Shown here: one piece after another, positions 14,904-20,054 of the stretch | How positions within the stretch are numbered: the first letter of the stretch is position 1 | Layout: each line of letters opens with the position of its first letter | IMG/VR virus record: IMGVR_UViG_3300034175_000008 | Coordinates: 1 to 20,054 of that record | Direction: 5' to 3' (one strand) | DNA: 20,054 nucleotides | Source: a virus | Position numbers and translations under genes: made by a program | The notes under the pieces: model-generated | What the model saw: only the letters and a program-made list of their open reading frames with translations | Database searches by the model: none | Told to the model about the DNA's origin: nothing

Positions 14904-15500
14904 TTAGACGGTATAAGCGCCCCAGAATGCACCCTGCACAGTCAAGGTCAGAGTAGCAGTATTGGCATCAGTAAGCTGAGGATTAACCGCAATAGCTTCC
15001 AGTTTACCAATGAAGTAGAACTGCGAATTCGGGACAGTACCAAGACCACCCGCAGTCGAAGCAAACTTCGTTGCACCAGTACCAGTCGGATTCGAATTCA
15101 ACAGAGTGAATCTCATCACACGCTGAATACCGTCACCAATCATGTCAGCCAGAAGCGAAGTACCATCTGCCCAATTGCCTGGGATATAGTTGATGGTGAG
15201 TTCCATCGACGGCGCATCAGCCTGACCCTGAATCTGGGACGAGGTTGCTTGACCATAAGCAGGAACGTTCACAACGTTGGCAGGAGTACCAATAGCAGGA
15301 AACTCGCGAATATCCGCAAGACGAATAAATGCACCAGCAGCTTTAGTGCCGCCGTTATTAGCAATTTCAGTAGCAAACAAAGCTTGGAATTCAGCAGCAG
15401 TATCAAGAGCAGCCAAACCCGAAGCAGTCAGCTCAGTGCTAGGAGCATGCACGGACAAGTCCGAGAACATACCTGCACCAATAGAAGTAATATGAGCCAT
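14904..15500 (-). CDS. Major tail protein (tail tube)
   Basis: 198 residues, from an ATG at 15500 eight bases past the previous stop. The ribosome site is weak (AAGAAA). The N-terminus MAHITSIGAGMFSDLSVHAP is followed by IRLADIREFPAIGTPANVVN and VPAYGQATSSQIQGQADAPS, the pattern seen around the beta-hairpin of siphovirus tube proteins ('l.ei.dip.ig...e.idv..........qg.....'). Then comes MELTINYIPGN and a beta-rich C-terminus ending GAFWGAYTV. The position between tail terminator and tail chaperones is the standard one for a lambda V-type tube protein. Synonymous codons ending in C are frequent, as in the capsid gene and unlike the tape measure, consistent with high expression. The gene is followed by the strong hairpin at 14783-14822. 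Family call from motif and context; I am fairly sure. Confidence 0.85.
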   Translation of the reverse strand: MAHITSIGAGMFSDLSVHAPSTELTASGLAALDTAAEFQALFATEIANNGGTKAAGAFIRLADIREFPAIGTPANVVNVPAYGQATSSQIQGQADAPSMELTINYIPGNWADGTSLLADMIGDGIQRVMRFTLLNSNPTGTGATKFASTAGGLGTVPNSQFYFIGKLEAIAVNPQLTDANTATLTLTVQGAFWGAYTV

Positions 15501-16253: not shown

Positions 16254-16727
16254 TTAATTCGCCCTATACCACGCACGAGAACCTCTATTTAGTAATAAAG
16301 GTCTAATCGTCCTATGAATCCAAGAAGGCATCTTAGGTGGTGTCGAAATATCAGTTAATTGGATTGGACCAAGGCTGAGATTAACAACACCACCCGTCTC
16401 GTCTAATAGGCCATCATTGTTTAATAGATGATAGGCTAATTCAATAGTAGCTTTTATGATCTTAGATGGAACACCGTCCATAGCAATCACATAGCCAACG
16501 CGTGGATCAAAGTATTCACCAACACGAGGAAAAGCTAGCGGTTGGCTTTCACTTACAGCAACACCTGTCCATTCAAAAGACTCAATCAGCATTGTAGCAG
16601 AGATAAGTGCCTTAGACCGAGTGTCTTCGTCAGCTTCATCCCAAGCAGCAACATCTAAACGATTCTCAAAATGAGCATTCGCATCTTCTAACGTAACGTA
16701 AGAATTGACACCTAGTTCAATTGCCAT
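16254..16727 (-). CDS. Head-tail adaptor protein (HK97 gp6-like; 'DnaT-like' family)
   Basis: 157 residues from an ATG at 16727 with an AAGGA site about 9 bases upstream. The segment YVTLEDANAHFENRLDVAAW, then SKALISATMLIESFEWTGVA and QPLAFPRVG, is the signature 'Y.tl.eAn.Yf..R.....W.......r..aLi.At..id...w.G.....Qpl.fPR.g'. The family is often labelled putative DnaT-like ssDNA-binding protein, but genomic context places it as the connector below the portal. The second half has IIKATIELAYHLLNN and a C-terminal SWIHRTIRPLLLNRG. It follows the capsid gene directly. The helical core is typical of gp6/gp15-type adaptors. Good confidence in the family, and adaptor role by position. Confidence 0.8.
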   Translation of the reverse strand: MAIELGVNSYVTLEDANAHFENRLDVAAWDEADEDTRSKALISATMLIESFEWTGVAVSESQPLAFPRVGEYFDPRVGYVIAMDGVPSKIIKATIELAYHLLNNDGLLDETGGVVNLSLGPIQLTDISTPPKMPSWIHRTIRPLLLNRGSRAWYRAN

Positions 16728-16739
16728 AAGTGAATATCC

Positions 16740-17933
16740 TTACGAGTGGAAGATCGGAAGAATACCAAGCGAGAGAGCCGAAGAAGCCTTACGCTGCCAG
16801 TTGCCACGAGCGTTTGCAATGGTAGTAACACCAGCCAAAGCTTCAAACGTGGTACGGCTATCCTCAGTAACGAGGGTATAGTCAGTGTCGCTTGGGAAAG
16901 CTTCCTGCGAACCGTTCCAGTTGTAACCAGCCGGATGCAGAACATAACCCCAACGATACCAGATGGAAGTCAAACCACCACCCTTATACTTGTTACCATC
17001 GCGAGTGATTTCGGTCTCATCAGGCACATCGAGAGCTTCCATAGCAAGCGCTCCAGGGAGCACCAAATAGGAAGTCTTAGTACCAACAATGTCAACACCA
17101 GCACCAGTATTAATCTTAGTAAGATCGGCGCTCGACAGATTCGTAGCAGCACGCGAAGAAATCAGACGGAACTTACCATCAAAGATCGTCGAGAACTCAA
17201 CGTTACCATCAGTGACCTTATCCTGATCGACAAGGTTTGCCGAACGGAGTTGAGCCATGAGAGCGGGCGAAGTAATAAGATACATGAAATCAGGCTCATA
17301 ATCCTTGTATGCCATACCAACAGCATTAAGGAACGATTCAGCACGCGCTGCACCTTGGCTGGAAGCAGAAGCTGCACCAACAAGAGTGGACGCACCAAGA
17401 TCGATATAGAAGCCATACTTCTTATCAGTCGGGTCGTTGTCAAAAGTCTGACCACCAAGGCCAGTTGCACCACTACCAGTAGCAGCACCATTCAGTGCTT
17501 CCGAGATAGCAACGCCCTTGAGAACGGCCATAACAGCGTTATGCTCGTCCTGTGCCTTGGTTTCACCAAAGTCACGACCAATCTTAGCAAGACCATCTTC
17601 CTGAGTGACAACCTTCGCCATGTTAACCTTCTCAGCACCATGGGTACGGACGGTCTTGATGTACGAAAGATAGTCAGACGAGTAAGTGGTCTTCGTACCA
17701 TCAGAAGCATCAGTAAGCGACGCAACGTTGATGGTAGGATTCATTGGCTTGTACCAACGAAGCTGACCGATAAAAGTCTCGGTATCTTTATCAATTTGAT
17801 CATTACCACTGACAATTGCAGTGCTAGAAAGCTTACGCGCATTGGTGTAAGCCTCGTGGGAGTAAGCGCCAATAGTTTCTTGCAGAACAAGATTGCTAAC
17901 GCCAACACCCGGAAGATCATTATAACGTGACAT
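16740..17933 (-). CDS. Major capsid protein (HK97 fold)
   Basis: 397 residues. ATG at 17933 has an AAAGGAAA ribosome site. It starts MSRYNDLPGVGVSNLVLQET, followed by an E-loop-like region LRWYKPMNPTINVASLTDAS. A long helix region (KIGRDFGETKAQDEHNAVMA) resembles the spine helix. FDGKFRLISSRAATNLSSAD lies in the P/A-domain area. The C-terminal SIWYRWGYVLHPAGYNWNGS matches the conserved end of gp13-like major capsid proteins (PF20036 type). It sits directly after the scaffold gene and before the adaptor. No protease cleavage segment (delta domain) is evident at the N-terminus; the separate scaffold supplies that role. Codon use is distinct: there are no TTA, CTA or TCA codons across almost the whole gene, so the antisense strand is open, consistent with selection for efficient translation. 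Confidence 0.9.
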   Translation of the reverse strand: MSRYNDLPGVGVSNLVLQETIGAYSHEAYTNARKLSSTAIVSGNDQIDKDTETFIGQLRWYKPMNPTINVASLTDASDGTKTTYSSDYLSYIKTVRTHGAEKVNMAKVVTQEDGLAKIGRDFGETKAQDEHNAVMAVLKGVAISEALNGAATGSGATGLGGQTFDNDPTDKKYGFYIDLGASTLVGAASASSQGAARAESFLNAVGMAYKDYEPDFMYLITSPALMAQLRSANLVDQDKVTDGNVEFSTIFDGKFRLISSRAATNLSSADLTKINTGAGVDIVGTKTSYLVLPGALAMEALDVPDETEITRDGNKYKGGGLTSIWYRWGYVLHPAGYNWNGSQEAFPSDTDYTLVTEDSRTTFEALAGVTTIANARGNWQRKASSALSLGILPIFHS

Positions 17934-17951: not shown

Positions 17952-18662
17952 TTAACCGCGTCGGAGTTCACCCTTCGCGACTCTAGCTATTACTTCTGAT
18001 TGAGGTAAGCCAAAGAGACTGCCTTCAGTCTTCTTGCCACCACCATCAGGAGTTGTTTTTGTGACACCTGAACCGCTGCTATTCTTAGGCTTGAGTAACC
18101 AAGTATTTTCCTTGTCCTCTAAGTAAGCCTTTACTAGCACTTCGATAGAACGACCATCTTTAGCAACCCATTCGCCATTCTCATCTTTCTTCAGCATTTT
18201 CGTAATATCGCCAGTAGCAACATCACGAGCCTTCTGATTACGGAAATCAAATGATCCTAGAGTATCCCGCACTGATGCATCACGCGTAAGACGAGTAATT
18301 TCCTTTTCAAGATCTTTAATAGTCGCGTCTTTCGTTGCAACTAGTGTATCCTTGTCAGCAATTTCTCTGGCGTGAGCTTCCTCTAGCTTACCTTGTTCCC
18401 TCAGCTTAGCGGTTTCAGCTTCACGCTCTTTACGTTCGACTTCAGCAACCTTTGCAAGTGCTTCGTCTCGCGCCTTATAAGCGGCATCAATACTGGCTTT
18501 GACTTTCTTGTTATCGAGTTCTAAAGCTTCTTTAGCTTCTCGCTCAGCCTTTTGTTCCTCAGTTTCCTGATCGTCCTCGTTATTGTCGAGGTCATCTTTC
18601 TGGCTGTTATCATCAAGATTGTCTTCGTTGTCGTCTTCTAATTCAGGTTTATCGATAGGCAT
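17952..18662 (-). CDS. Capsid scaffolding protein
   Basis: 236 residues from the ATG at 18662, which has a strong AAAGGAAAA site six bases upstream. An in-frame ATG at 18689 would add nine residues but has no ribosome site. The N-terminal 45 residues are extremely acidic (NEDNLDDNSQKDDLDNNEDD). Residues about 45-130 are a charged heptad-like coiled coil (EQKAEREAKEALE, KVAEVERKEREAETAKLREQ, ADKDTLVATKDATIKDLEKE). A small folded region follows (SIEVLVKAYLEDKENTWLL), then a Gly/Ser/Lys-rich linker and a basic end, KGELRRG. Acidic front, coiled-coil middle and basic tail just before the capsid gene is the classic phage scaffold design. The basic C-terminus is the usual contact with capsid subunits. 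It should be absent from mature heads. The family is not identified by motif, only by architecture and place. Confidence 0.8.
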   Translation of the reverse strand: MPIDKPELEDDNEDNLDDNSQKDDLDNNEDDQETEEQKAEREAKEALELDNKKVKASIDAAYKARDEALAKVAEVERKEREAETAKLREQGKLEEAHAREIADKDTLVATKDATIKDLEKEITRLTRDASVRDTLGSFDFRNQKARDVATGDITKMLKKDENGEWVAKDGRSIEVLVKAYLEDKENTWLLKPKNSSGSGVTKTTPDGGGKKTEGSLFGLPQSEVIARVAKGELRRG

Positions 18663-18689
18663 TTTGATTTTCCTTTGAGCACGGCTCAT

Positions 18690-18791
18690 TTAAATGAAAG
18701 TACGACTCTCATTTATAAAATCGGATAGATATAGGTTCAGTTGGATACTATCTTTTCCAGACCCATATCTGGGTTAAATTAACGGGTTCTC
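18690..18791 (-). promoter_or_regulatory. Intergenic leader of the capsid genes with small alternative hairpins and a weak promoter candidate
   Basis: Between the polymerase-like gene (stop 18794-18792) and the scaffold lies the largest spacer of the head region. At 18758-18773 two mutually exclusive small hairpins are possible: ACCCA-GATA-TGGGT and CCAGA-TATGGG-TCTGG on the minus strand. Neither is followed by a U-tract, so they are not terminators. A TATAAA box at 18717-18712 could be a -10 element, but its -35 (CTGAAC, 17-bp spacing) matches poorly. A host-type or phage-specific promoter for the abundant capsid genes would be sensible here, but the sequence does not prove one. Confidence 0.3.
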
Positions 18792-20054
18792 TTAACCAAC
18801 TCCGTACCATCCGTAGTTATCTTTAAAACCAAAGGGCACTTGTTGCAGAATATCTTCTGGCTTAAGAATGTCATCTTCTGTGAGCACTTTACCATCAACA
18901 ACTGAGCGACCAGCGACAGGGATAAGTCCTTTGTCAATAGCTTCGTTCAAGTAATTGTCATAAAGTTTTCTAGGAAGACCACGAGCAAGCATTTCATTCA
19001 ATACCATTAGAATAACATTATTCTTAAGCATATCAGCATAAATGCTTCTCAACTCTCTTCGTCCATCCATTAAGTCTGCAATGTTAGTAAAGAATGCATC
19101 ATGCACAGTAGCAGTAGGAATTTTATTCTTACGACCCCATGAATGAAAACGTTTCACAATAACAGCATCGTTTGAGTGGTTACCATTAACAGCATAAGCG
19201 GTTCTAGCTCTTGTTAAGTCAGCAATATCATTAATCTTACCATCCTTATCAGAGAACTCATCCCACCAACTAACACGTGTCTTTTGTGGCACCATTACAA
19301 TATTAACTGACCAAGTCCCATCAGGGTTCTTATATACAAGTCTTTCTTCAAAAGCCTGAGTAAAGGGCTGTTCAAGCACCTTACCTTCGAAGTTAACCCA
19401 AGGAACAGTAGTCCAATCAGGTGGAACCTTATTCAGCTTTGTAACACCAATTTCAAAACCTGGAAATAACTTAATACCTGCAATCTTAAGTTCAAGAATA
19501 CGCTTTCCAACAGTTCTATCTCCAGGTGCACCAACACCGTATATCATATCGGCTAAGGATGCTTCTGGTTTATAGAAAGAAAATTTCTTTAAGAACTTTT
19601 CACTAACAGGTTGTCCAGCTTTAATACCAAGGATTTCAGATACAGCATCAGGTAGAATATACGAGCCTTTCTTATAGCCTAGTAATTTACCTTTAGCAAT
19701 AGTTGTCCATGAAAGTGCAGCATCAGCAGGTTTTGCATTCTCTAGAAATGATGCAGCCATACGACCTAAAAAGCGTGTGAAGCCTTCTTGAATAGGGGCT
19801 TCAGCAGCTAGATACTCGCTAAAGATTTTGGCAACAGTTTTAAAGTCATCTGGAGTAACAATATTATCGTATTGTGCTGTAAGCTTCTCAACAAGTAATT
19901 TCGTTTTAGGATTTAAGAACCAAAGTTGATCTATAATATCATCAGTAGGCGTTAAGCCTTTGTTAAATACGTCTTTGACATTCTGTCTTAAATCCAAATA
20001 TGCTTGTGCTGTATCAGGGTCATATCTTTGATATCGCGCAGCTTGTGCAGTAAT
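18792..20054 (-). CDS. N4-virion-type single-subunit RNA polymerase, C-terminal part (5' end outside window)
   Basis: The frame is open from the window edge (20054) to a TAA at 18794-18792, 420 residues. A TTG at 19997 is not needed as a start because the frame continues upstream. Near the end, TAYAVNGNHSNDAVIVKRFH followed by SWGRKNKIPTATVHDAFFTN parallels T7 RNA polymerase's HSQDGSH ... ALIHDSFGT. The HD pair (window residues 318-319) is motif C, with the catalytic metal-binding Asp (T7 D812). The wording is closer to N4 virion RNA polymerase-type proteins than to T7, as far as I remember them. Upstream segments PWVNFEGKVLEQPFTQAFEE and VMVPQKTRVSWWDEF fit the same family. Motifs A and B are not visible and would lie beyond the edge. 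If N4-like, it is packaged in the virion and transcribes early genes on entry. The place directly before the capsid genes supports a virion protein. Confidence 0.7.
   Translation of the reverse strand: MTAQAARYQRYDPDTAQAYLDLRQNVKDVFNKGLTPTDDIIDQLWFLNPKTKLLVEKLTAQYDNIVTPDDFKTVAKIFSEYLAAEAPIQEGFTRFLGRMAASFLENAKPADAALSWTTIAKGKLLGYKKGSYILPDAVSEILGIKAGQPVSEKFLKKFSFYKPEASLADMIYGVGAPGDRTVGKRILELKIAGIKLFPGFEIGVTKLNKVPPDWTTVPWVNFEGKVLEQPFTQAFEERLVYKNPDGTWSVNIVMVPQKTRVSWWDEFSDKDGKINDIADLTRARTAYAVNGNHSNDAVIVKRFHSWGRKNKIPTATVHDAFFTNIADLMDGRRELRSIYADMLKNNVILMVLNEMLARGLPRKLYDNYLNEAIDKGLIPVAGRSVVDGKVLTEDDILKPEDILQQVPFGFKDNYGWYGVG

Follow-up and report, generated by a model that had tools for sequence, protein, structure and literature searches.

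The window analyzed here, a stretch of 20,054 bases, is an entire IMG/VR virus record (IMGVR_UViG_3300034175_000008), which stops at that length. All of the features that we describe in it lie on the minus strand (Table 1), and the highest coordinates are thus the most upstream. At this end is a truncated reading frame that we assign to a fusion of a MuF-type head protein and a single-subunit RNA polymerase (RNAP), followed by genes for scaffold, major head, head-tail adaptor, major tail, and tape measure proteins. Siphovirus capsid and tail neighbors had been named in an earlier note, made from the sequence of the window alone, and the PHROG and Pfam matches to the scaffold, major head, tail, and tape measure genes bear this out. 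For the scaffold gene, the ATG at 18662, which follows a Shine-Dalgarno-like AAAGGA, is a likelier start than the first ATG of the open reading frame at 18689. The tape measure protein contains an internal Peptidase_M15_3 domain (residues 2671-2735, E = 1.8e-8).

Table 1. Features of the window, with the evidence for each assignment.
Feature	Position	Strand	Evidence
C-terminal 420 aa of MuF-RNA polymerase fusion	18792..20054	-	frame open to contig end
NGNHSNDAV, equivalent to the T7 RNAP NFVHSQDG segment with His784	19161..19187	-	sequence and MAFFT alignment with T7 RNAP
VHDAFF, motif C, equivalent to T7 RNAP His811-Asp812	19089..19106	-	sequence and alignment
CCCGTTAATTTAACCC, copy of promoter-like element M1 (CCCGTTANNTTAACCC)	18771..18786	-	one exact match in window, 0.05 expected
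GAGAGTCGTACTTTC, first short hairpin, triloop CGT, one G-U pair if RNA	18696..18710	-	sequence
GAGCCGTGCTC, second short hairpin, triloop CGT, beside Shine-Dalgarno-like AAAGGA of scaffold gene	18677..18687	-	sequence
Head scaffolding protein	17952..18662	-	phrog_206, E = 7.2e-15; start inferred
Major head protein	16740..17933	-	phrog_247, E = 4e-17
Head-tail adaptor	16254..16727	-	phrog_477, E = 2.5e-23
Major tail protein	14904..15500	-	phrog_158, E = 3.2e-10
Tape measure protein, 3,308 aa	3586..13512	-	Pfam TMP_3, E = 2.3e-47

The earlier note had recognized a single-subunit RNAP motif C and an NGNHSND segment in the C-terminal part of the truncated frame. Both are present, and they are supported by homologues and by profiles, for which the fragment alone provides moderate evidence: two RNA polymerase families in PHROGs are matched (E = 1.4e-5 and 2e-5). 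The Pfam RNA_pol score of the fragment, 16.2 bits (E = 0.005), is below the family cut-off of 22 bits, and a PDB sequence search with it returned weak unrelated matches only. Its full-length identity to homologues in three other phage records is 51-59%, the upper value being to a 1,556-aa open reading frame (L006:6620-11290; 59% over 420 aa), of which it corresponds approximately to residues 1137-1556. While motif C and the His784 segment are visible in the window, motifs A and B and the MuF part were read from relatives because the contig ends before them, the 5′ part of the gene lying beyond it.

When 50,697 phage records were searched by tblastn, the fragment recovered EBPR siphovirus 1 (51%, full length) and the Noahviruses DSS3_VP1 and DSS3_PM1 (30%), plus one weak phage polymerase match. 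The complete 1,556-aa frame, which lies in a 76.9-kb IMG/VR relative, matches Pfam Phage_Mu_F at residues 145-250 (E = 4e-11) and RNA_pol downstream (E = 2e-10); its PHROG matches agree, being to families for head morphogenesis (phrog_241, E = 2e-59) and RNA polymerase (phrog_414, E = 3e-20). Among PDB sequences, a full-length relative finds T7 RNAP at E = 0.0035. Over the full length, RNA_pol (PF00940) scores 27-40.6 bits in relatives, above the 22-bit cut-off in 15/15 genomes, and Phage_Mu_F (PF04233) scores 44-58.5 bits in three relatives (cut-off 29.6). The fused polymerase is found in all 15 records examined. Open frames for the fusion measure ~1,465-1,578 aa (typically ~1,550); MuF is N-terminal in them, and the polymerase is placed last. 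In DSS3_PM1, both domains are in one 1,463-aa protein, QGH74736.1. In all 13 genomes tested, there is a single MuF domain, and it is always in the fusion frame. The gene order in relatives is portal, fusion, scaffold, capsid. For six independent close pairs, dN/dS is 0.06 in both the MuF and the polymerase parts and 0.05 in the part between them, which indicates purifying selection on both halves. By these profile matches, the gene encodes a fusion of an SPP1 gp7-type minor head domain to a complete T7-like single-subunit RNAP. This N-terminal MuF domain, which the earlier note had missed, would provide a packaging route.

The catalytic residues are intact in the 59 full-length relatives. The equivalents of T7 D421, R425, D537, K631, Y639, G640, H784, H811, and D812 are invariant (59/59), such that T/DxxGR, the motif A Asp, the motif B Lys/Tyr/Gly, and the motif C His-Asp show no variation, while the R627 equivalent is R in 55 and replaced in 4. 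The motif A Asp and the motif B Lys/Tyr, which the earlier note had singled out as the residues to look for in a full-length frame, are thus present in relatives of 51-66% identity. The blocks around motifs A and B are among the best-conserved stretches of the whole fusion protein (mean identity 0.86-0.88). The conservation of motif B is partly built in, as a motif B peptide was among the six patterns of our first IMG/VR scan; motif A and T/DxxGR lay outside these patterns.

An AlphaFold2 model of fusion residues 381-1556 (pLDDT 82, pTM 0.77) superposes on T7 RNAP with a Z-score of 30.1 (526 residues, 3.6 Å), with model residues 189-1176 equivalent to T7 42-883, and the T7-like fold thus spans the protein from residue ~569 to 1556. 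The model contains a low-confidence insertion between motifs B and C. The next structural matches are mitochondrial RNAP (Z ~27) and then N4 mini-vRNAP (Z 19.4). The comparison with N4 and T7 that the earlier note had proposed therefore confirms a single-subunit RNAP fold, yet its label "N4-type" does not hold by structure, since the predicted fold is nearest to T7 RNAP and the architecture differs from that of N4. Judged from the model, "N4-type" suits the presumed role of the protein, not its family. For the N-terminal part, a Foldseek search of the model against the PDB gave nothing below E = 0.3, and a library of predicted viral structures gave head morphogenesis and minor capsid proteins, one of them named an ADP-ribosyltransferase. 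With its intact catalytic residues and T7-like fold, the fused domain is probably an active polymerase.

Stretches that encode relatives are numerous among uncultured viruses. An IMG/VR scan with the polymerase part found 368 stretches, all of them relatives, and a scan on the His784 and motif C words found at least 561 relatives (561 of 600 stretches among the matches listed). Among the 50,697 annotated phages, only EBPR siphovirus 1 and the roseophages DSS3_VP1 and DSS3_PM1 encode the fusion, and in these three the gene is annotated as a head or hypothetical protein, never as a polymerase. A prophage scan of 84,980 bacterial and archaeal species yielded only two contigs (L092 and L093), both from one metagenome bin. 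The bin is assigned to Gammaproteobacteria in GTDB, and one of the contigs has 74,179 bases like an IMG/VR record. These are probably phage contigs that were binned with a bacterium. With no other match among these species, a prophage lifestyle was rejected, and from its near-absence from bacterial and archaeal genomes the lineage looks virulent.

In EBPR siphovirus 1, the fusion gene is split into gp47 and gp49, annotated as separate genes with an HNH gene between them. The split interrupts motif B (AQNMV / TFYG) and is also the point at which a match to group I introns begins (40.5 bits, E = 2e-8, below the Rfam gathering score of 50). The HNH reading frame ends at the second exon. The predicted intron (L002:19024-19873), with its NUMOD/HNH frame, lies inside the motif B codons. 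Insertion at a catalytic codon is typical of homing group I introns, and the simplest reading of the split is a homing group I intron of ~850 nt at such a codon.

A second polymerase is widespread in this lineage. Besides the fusion, and at a distance from it, the 13 long IMG/VR relatives and DSS3_PM1 encode a stand-alone T7-like RNAP. This protein has ~735-780 aa in 12 long relatives, and two further ones reach 926-994 aa. In the two longer frames (G007:C1:40438-42273 and G008:C1:18123-20177), the profile match is in two pieces; these look interrupted, perhaps by an intein or another kind of insertion. The annotation of DSS3_VP1 names the stand-alone gene "RNA polymerase" and the fusion "head morphogenesis". 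In the 54.5-kb record of EBPR siphovirus 1, the fusion is present and a second polymerase was not found; this record is partial according to GenBank and complete according to its paper (PMC3097231). In our phylogeny, the fused enzymes form one group (support 91/99), and the stand-alone enzymes form another (97/91) near those of Autographiviridae. Since the two sets are separate clades, we rejected the idea that the stand-alone polymerase was recently copied into the MuF gene. The fused group joins N4 vRNAP in the tree, but the N4 branch is so long (7.25 changes per site) that the topology neither supports nor excludes kinship with N4. Both polymerases split alike between the Noahvirus and window lineages, which suggests that both were probably in their common ancestor.

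Two kinds of non-coding elements lie between the fusion and scaffold genes. The first, M1 (CCCGTTANNTTAACCC), is promoter-like and partly palindromic, its inner bases being degenerate. The copy in the window is a few bases past the fusion stop codon and upstream of the scaffold gene, the same place as in most relatives. With at most one mismatch allowed, nine genomes contain 41 copies of M1 in gene sense and a single copy in the opposite orientation, and four sets of shuffles contained none. Each genome has M1 at about five syntenic locations. These precede the terminase module, the scaffold gene, the stand-alone RNAP block, and the block for the ssDNA-binding protein and DNA polymerase, and another lies elsewhere. 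EBPR siphovirus 1 has M1 at two of these locations, with one mismatch. In DSS3_VP1 (L144-L147), another element, AATAGGGTGCGTTAAAGAGGGGGA, is present instead; it is T7-promoter-like and has ~13 copies, all in gene sense. A motif search of non-coding regions for a second promoter class returned mainly M1-like and purine-rich words. Because M1 is used at late modules such as the scaffold, its distribution favors the stand-alone enzyme as its reader.

The second kind is a set of small hairpins in the scaffold leader. Just upstream of the ribosome site, scaffold leaders have short hairpins, most often two and otherwise one or three, each made of a [C/T]GT triloop on a stem of 4 bp; in the window, the first ATG of the scaffold frame overlaps one of them. 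The hairpin class is kept in 75/85 leaders, and candidate loops flanked by 3 Watson-Crick pairs amount to 68% in scaffold leaders versus 2.5% genome-wide. All four pair types occur, and the stem thus covaries. These hairpins are possibly a translational control element for the scaffold. The promoters of N4 vRNAP are template-strand hairpins with a purine at the center of a 3-base loop. The leader hairpins are unlikely to be such promoters, as a start at the N4 distance would fall after the Shine-Dalgarno site and the center of the template-strand loop is C rather than a purine.

Taken together, we think it probable that the fusion is a virion RNA polymerase, a T7-like enzyme that is carried on the MuF protein, packaged, delivered, and used to transcribe the first phage genes. 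Against this count the single promoter-like class that the motif searches gave, with no early class to assign to the fused polymerase, and the EBPR siphovirus 1 record with its fusion but no second polymerase. In the following scheme, packaging, delivery, activity, and temporal order are inferred. The protein would be made late, its gene being between those for portal and scaffold, and the MuF half would bind the portal and bring one or a few copies into the procapsid in the manner of SPP1 gp7. At infection, the polymerase would leave through the long tail, probably in unfolded form and either together with the DNA end or before it; it would then refold in the cell and transcribe the first phage genes without host RNAP. 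These genes would include the second, stand-alone T7-like RNAP, which in turn would serve the replication and late modules. Where the sole MuF protein of a phage ends in a polymerase, packaged cargo is the simplest explanation. For SPP1 gp7, the portal is known to bring a few copies into the procapsid, and the protein is portal-bound in the capsid (PMC6316719); MuF proteins in many phages bear C-terminal cargo (PMC6316719, PMC5576092, PMC5512222). The earlier note had raised the objection that a packaged polymerase would have to pass a narrow tail tube. This is not decisive in light of three precedents: N4 vRNAP is modelled as unfolded while ejected through a ~35 Å tube (PMC12633501), 80alpha gp44 leaves by way of a siphovirus tail along with the DNA (PMC11661146), and in P23-45 the vRNAP belongs to the tape measure protein (PMC10770324). 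A bolder version of this scheme, which we regard as conceivable and on balance doubtful, is that MuF tethers the polymerase to the portal or to the leading DNA end and that transcription helps pull the genome in, with two T7-like polymerases and no host RNAP involved. If so, a siphovirus head protein would be both an ejection factor and the first transcription engine.

Other uses of the fusion appear less plausible. It is improbable, in our estimation, that the polymerase is active but never delivered, i.e., that it is made late and stays in the producing cell, free or on the procapsid, for late transcription, with the MuF fusion serving merely for co-expression. The location of the gene in the late structural cluster speaks for this, as does the promoter-like element directly between it and the scaffold gene. 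However, all long relatives already have a stand-alone T7-like polymerase, permanent fusion to the only MuF domain of the genome, a portal-associated one, would be a poor design for a free enzyme, and MuF C-terminal cargo has been proposed to be virion-delivered in other phages (PMC5576092). We also consider it very unlikely that the protein is cleaved during head maturation, leaving MuF in the head and a freed polymerase to work alone in the capsid or cell. Proteolysis in head maturation and self-processing of polyvalent proteins are common, and there is a long stretch between MuF (to ~400) and the polymerase (from ~569), yet the T7-like fold already begins at the latter residue with no obvious disordered linker, the confidence of the model there is mostly >70, and Pfam and PHROG searches of fusion relatives found no N4-type metallopeptidase domain. 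Finally, the low-confidence insertion between motifs B and C and the R627 replacements might suggest that the polymerase fold now serves as a portal plug, structural or DNA-gripping, and has lost RNA synthesis, a reading made highly implausible by the nine invariant catalytic and signature positions and by the conservation of the motif A and B blocks.

P23-45 and the N4-like, crAss-like, and giant phages are known to have virion RNA polymerases. The packaged enzyme that we propose is like N4 gp50 in being a single-subunit RNAP encoded in the virion gene cluster with a second RNAP, in that case N4 RNAPII, encoded elsewhere (PMC4496689, PMC12633501), and the presumed likeness extends to early transcription by a delivered enzyme. 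The two differ in architecture and setting: N4 gp50 has 3,500 aa with the polymerase mid-protein and large extensions on both sides, whereas the fusion has ~1,550 aa with MuF N-terminal and the polymerase C-terminal, and N4 is a short-tailed phage, whereas the window phage has tape measure, major tail, and head-tail connector genes. P23-45 is likewise long-tailed, with a virion RNAP fused to a structural protein (gp96) and a second enzyme (nvRNAP gp64) (PMC10770324). Its virion enzyme is a two-barrel cellular-type RNAP joined to the tape measure protein, while here a T7-type enzyme is joined to a MuF head protein; the tape measure gene here is distinct from the fusion and gave no polymerase match. 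The pair of virion and non-virion polymerases nonetheless recalls the two-polymerase cascades of N4 and P23-45.

The carrier resembles SPP1 gp7 and the MuF polymorphic toxins in its N-terminal MuF domain, its gene position between portal and scaffold, and a C-terminal cargo that is proposed to be delivered (PMC6316719, PMC5576092). Known MuF cargos are toxins, ADP-ribosyltransferases, RNases, and nucleotide enzymes, and we found no RNA polymerase among them. Fold and catalytic motifs are common to the fused enzyme and the stand-alone T7-like RNAPs of Autographiviridae, but the latter are early proteins on their own, whereas the MuF-fused enzymes form a separate deep clade. A survey of polyvalent proteins reported N4-like virion RNAPs only in N4-like phages and prophages, with other fusion partners (PMC5512222). 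No published MuF-RNAP fusion was found in the open-access literature searched. The same fusion protein is, under other names, gp47/gp49 of EBPR siphovirus 1 and the "minor head protein-like protein" of Noahviruses DSS3_VP1 and DSS3_PM1, and our assignment thus corrects the annotation of a gene filed as "head morphogenesis" or "hypothetical protein". Both the enzyme type and the carrier domain are known; their combination is new, and it occurs in a large, almost unannotated phage lineage. If the fusion is packaged, it represents a further, independent virion RNAP route, in which the simplest known polymerase type is cargo on a MuF head protein, and this route would be common to hundreds of uncultured siphoviruses and two cultured roseophages. 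Such phages would be candidates for transcription independent of host RNAP, and in DSS3_VP1 and DSS3_PM1 the passage of a ~110-kDa enzyme domain through a tail tube becomes testable.
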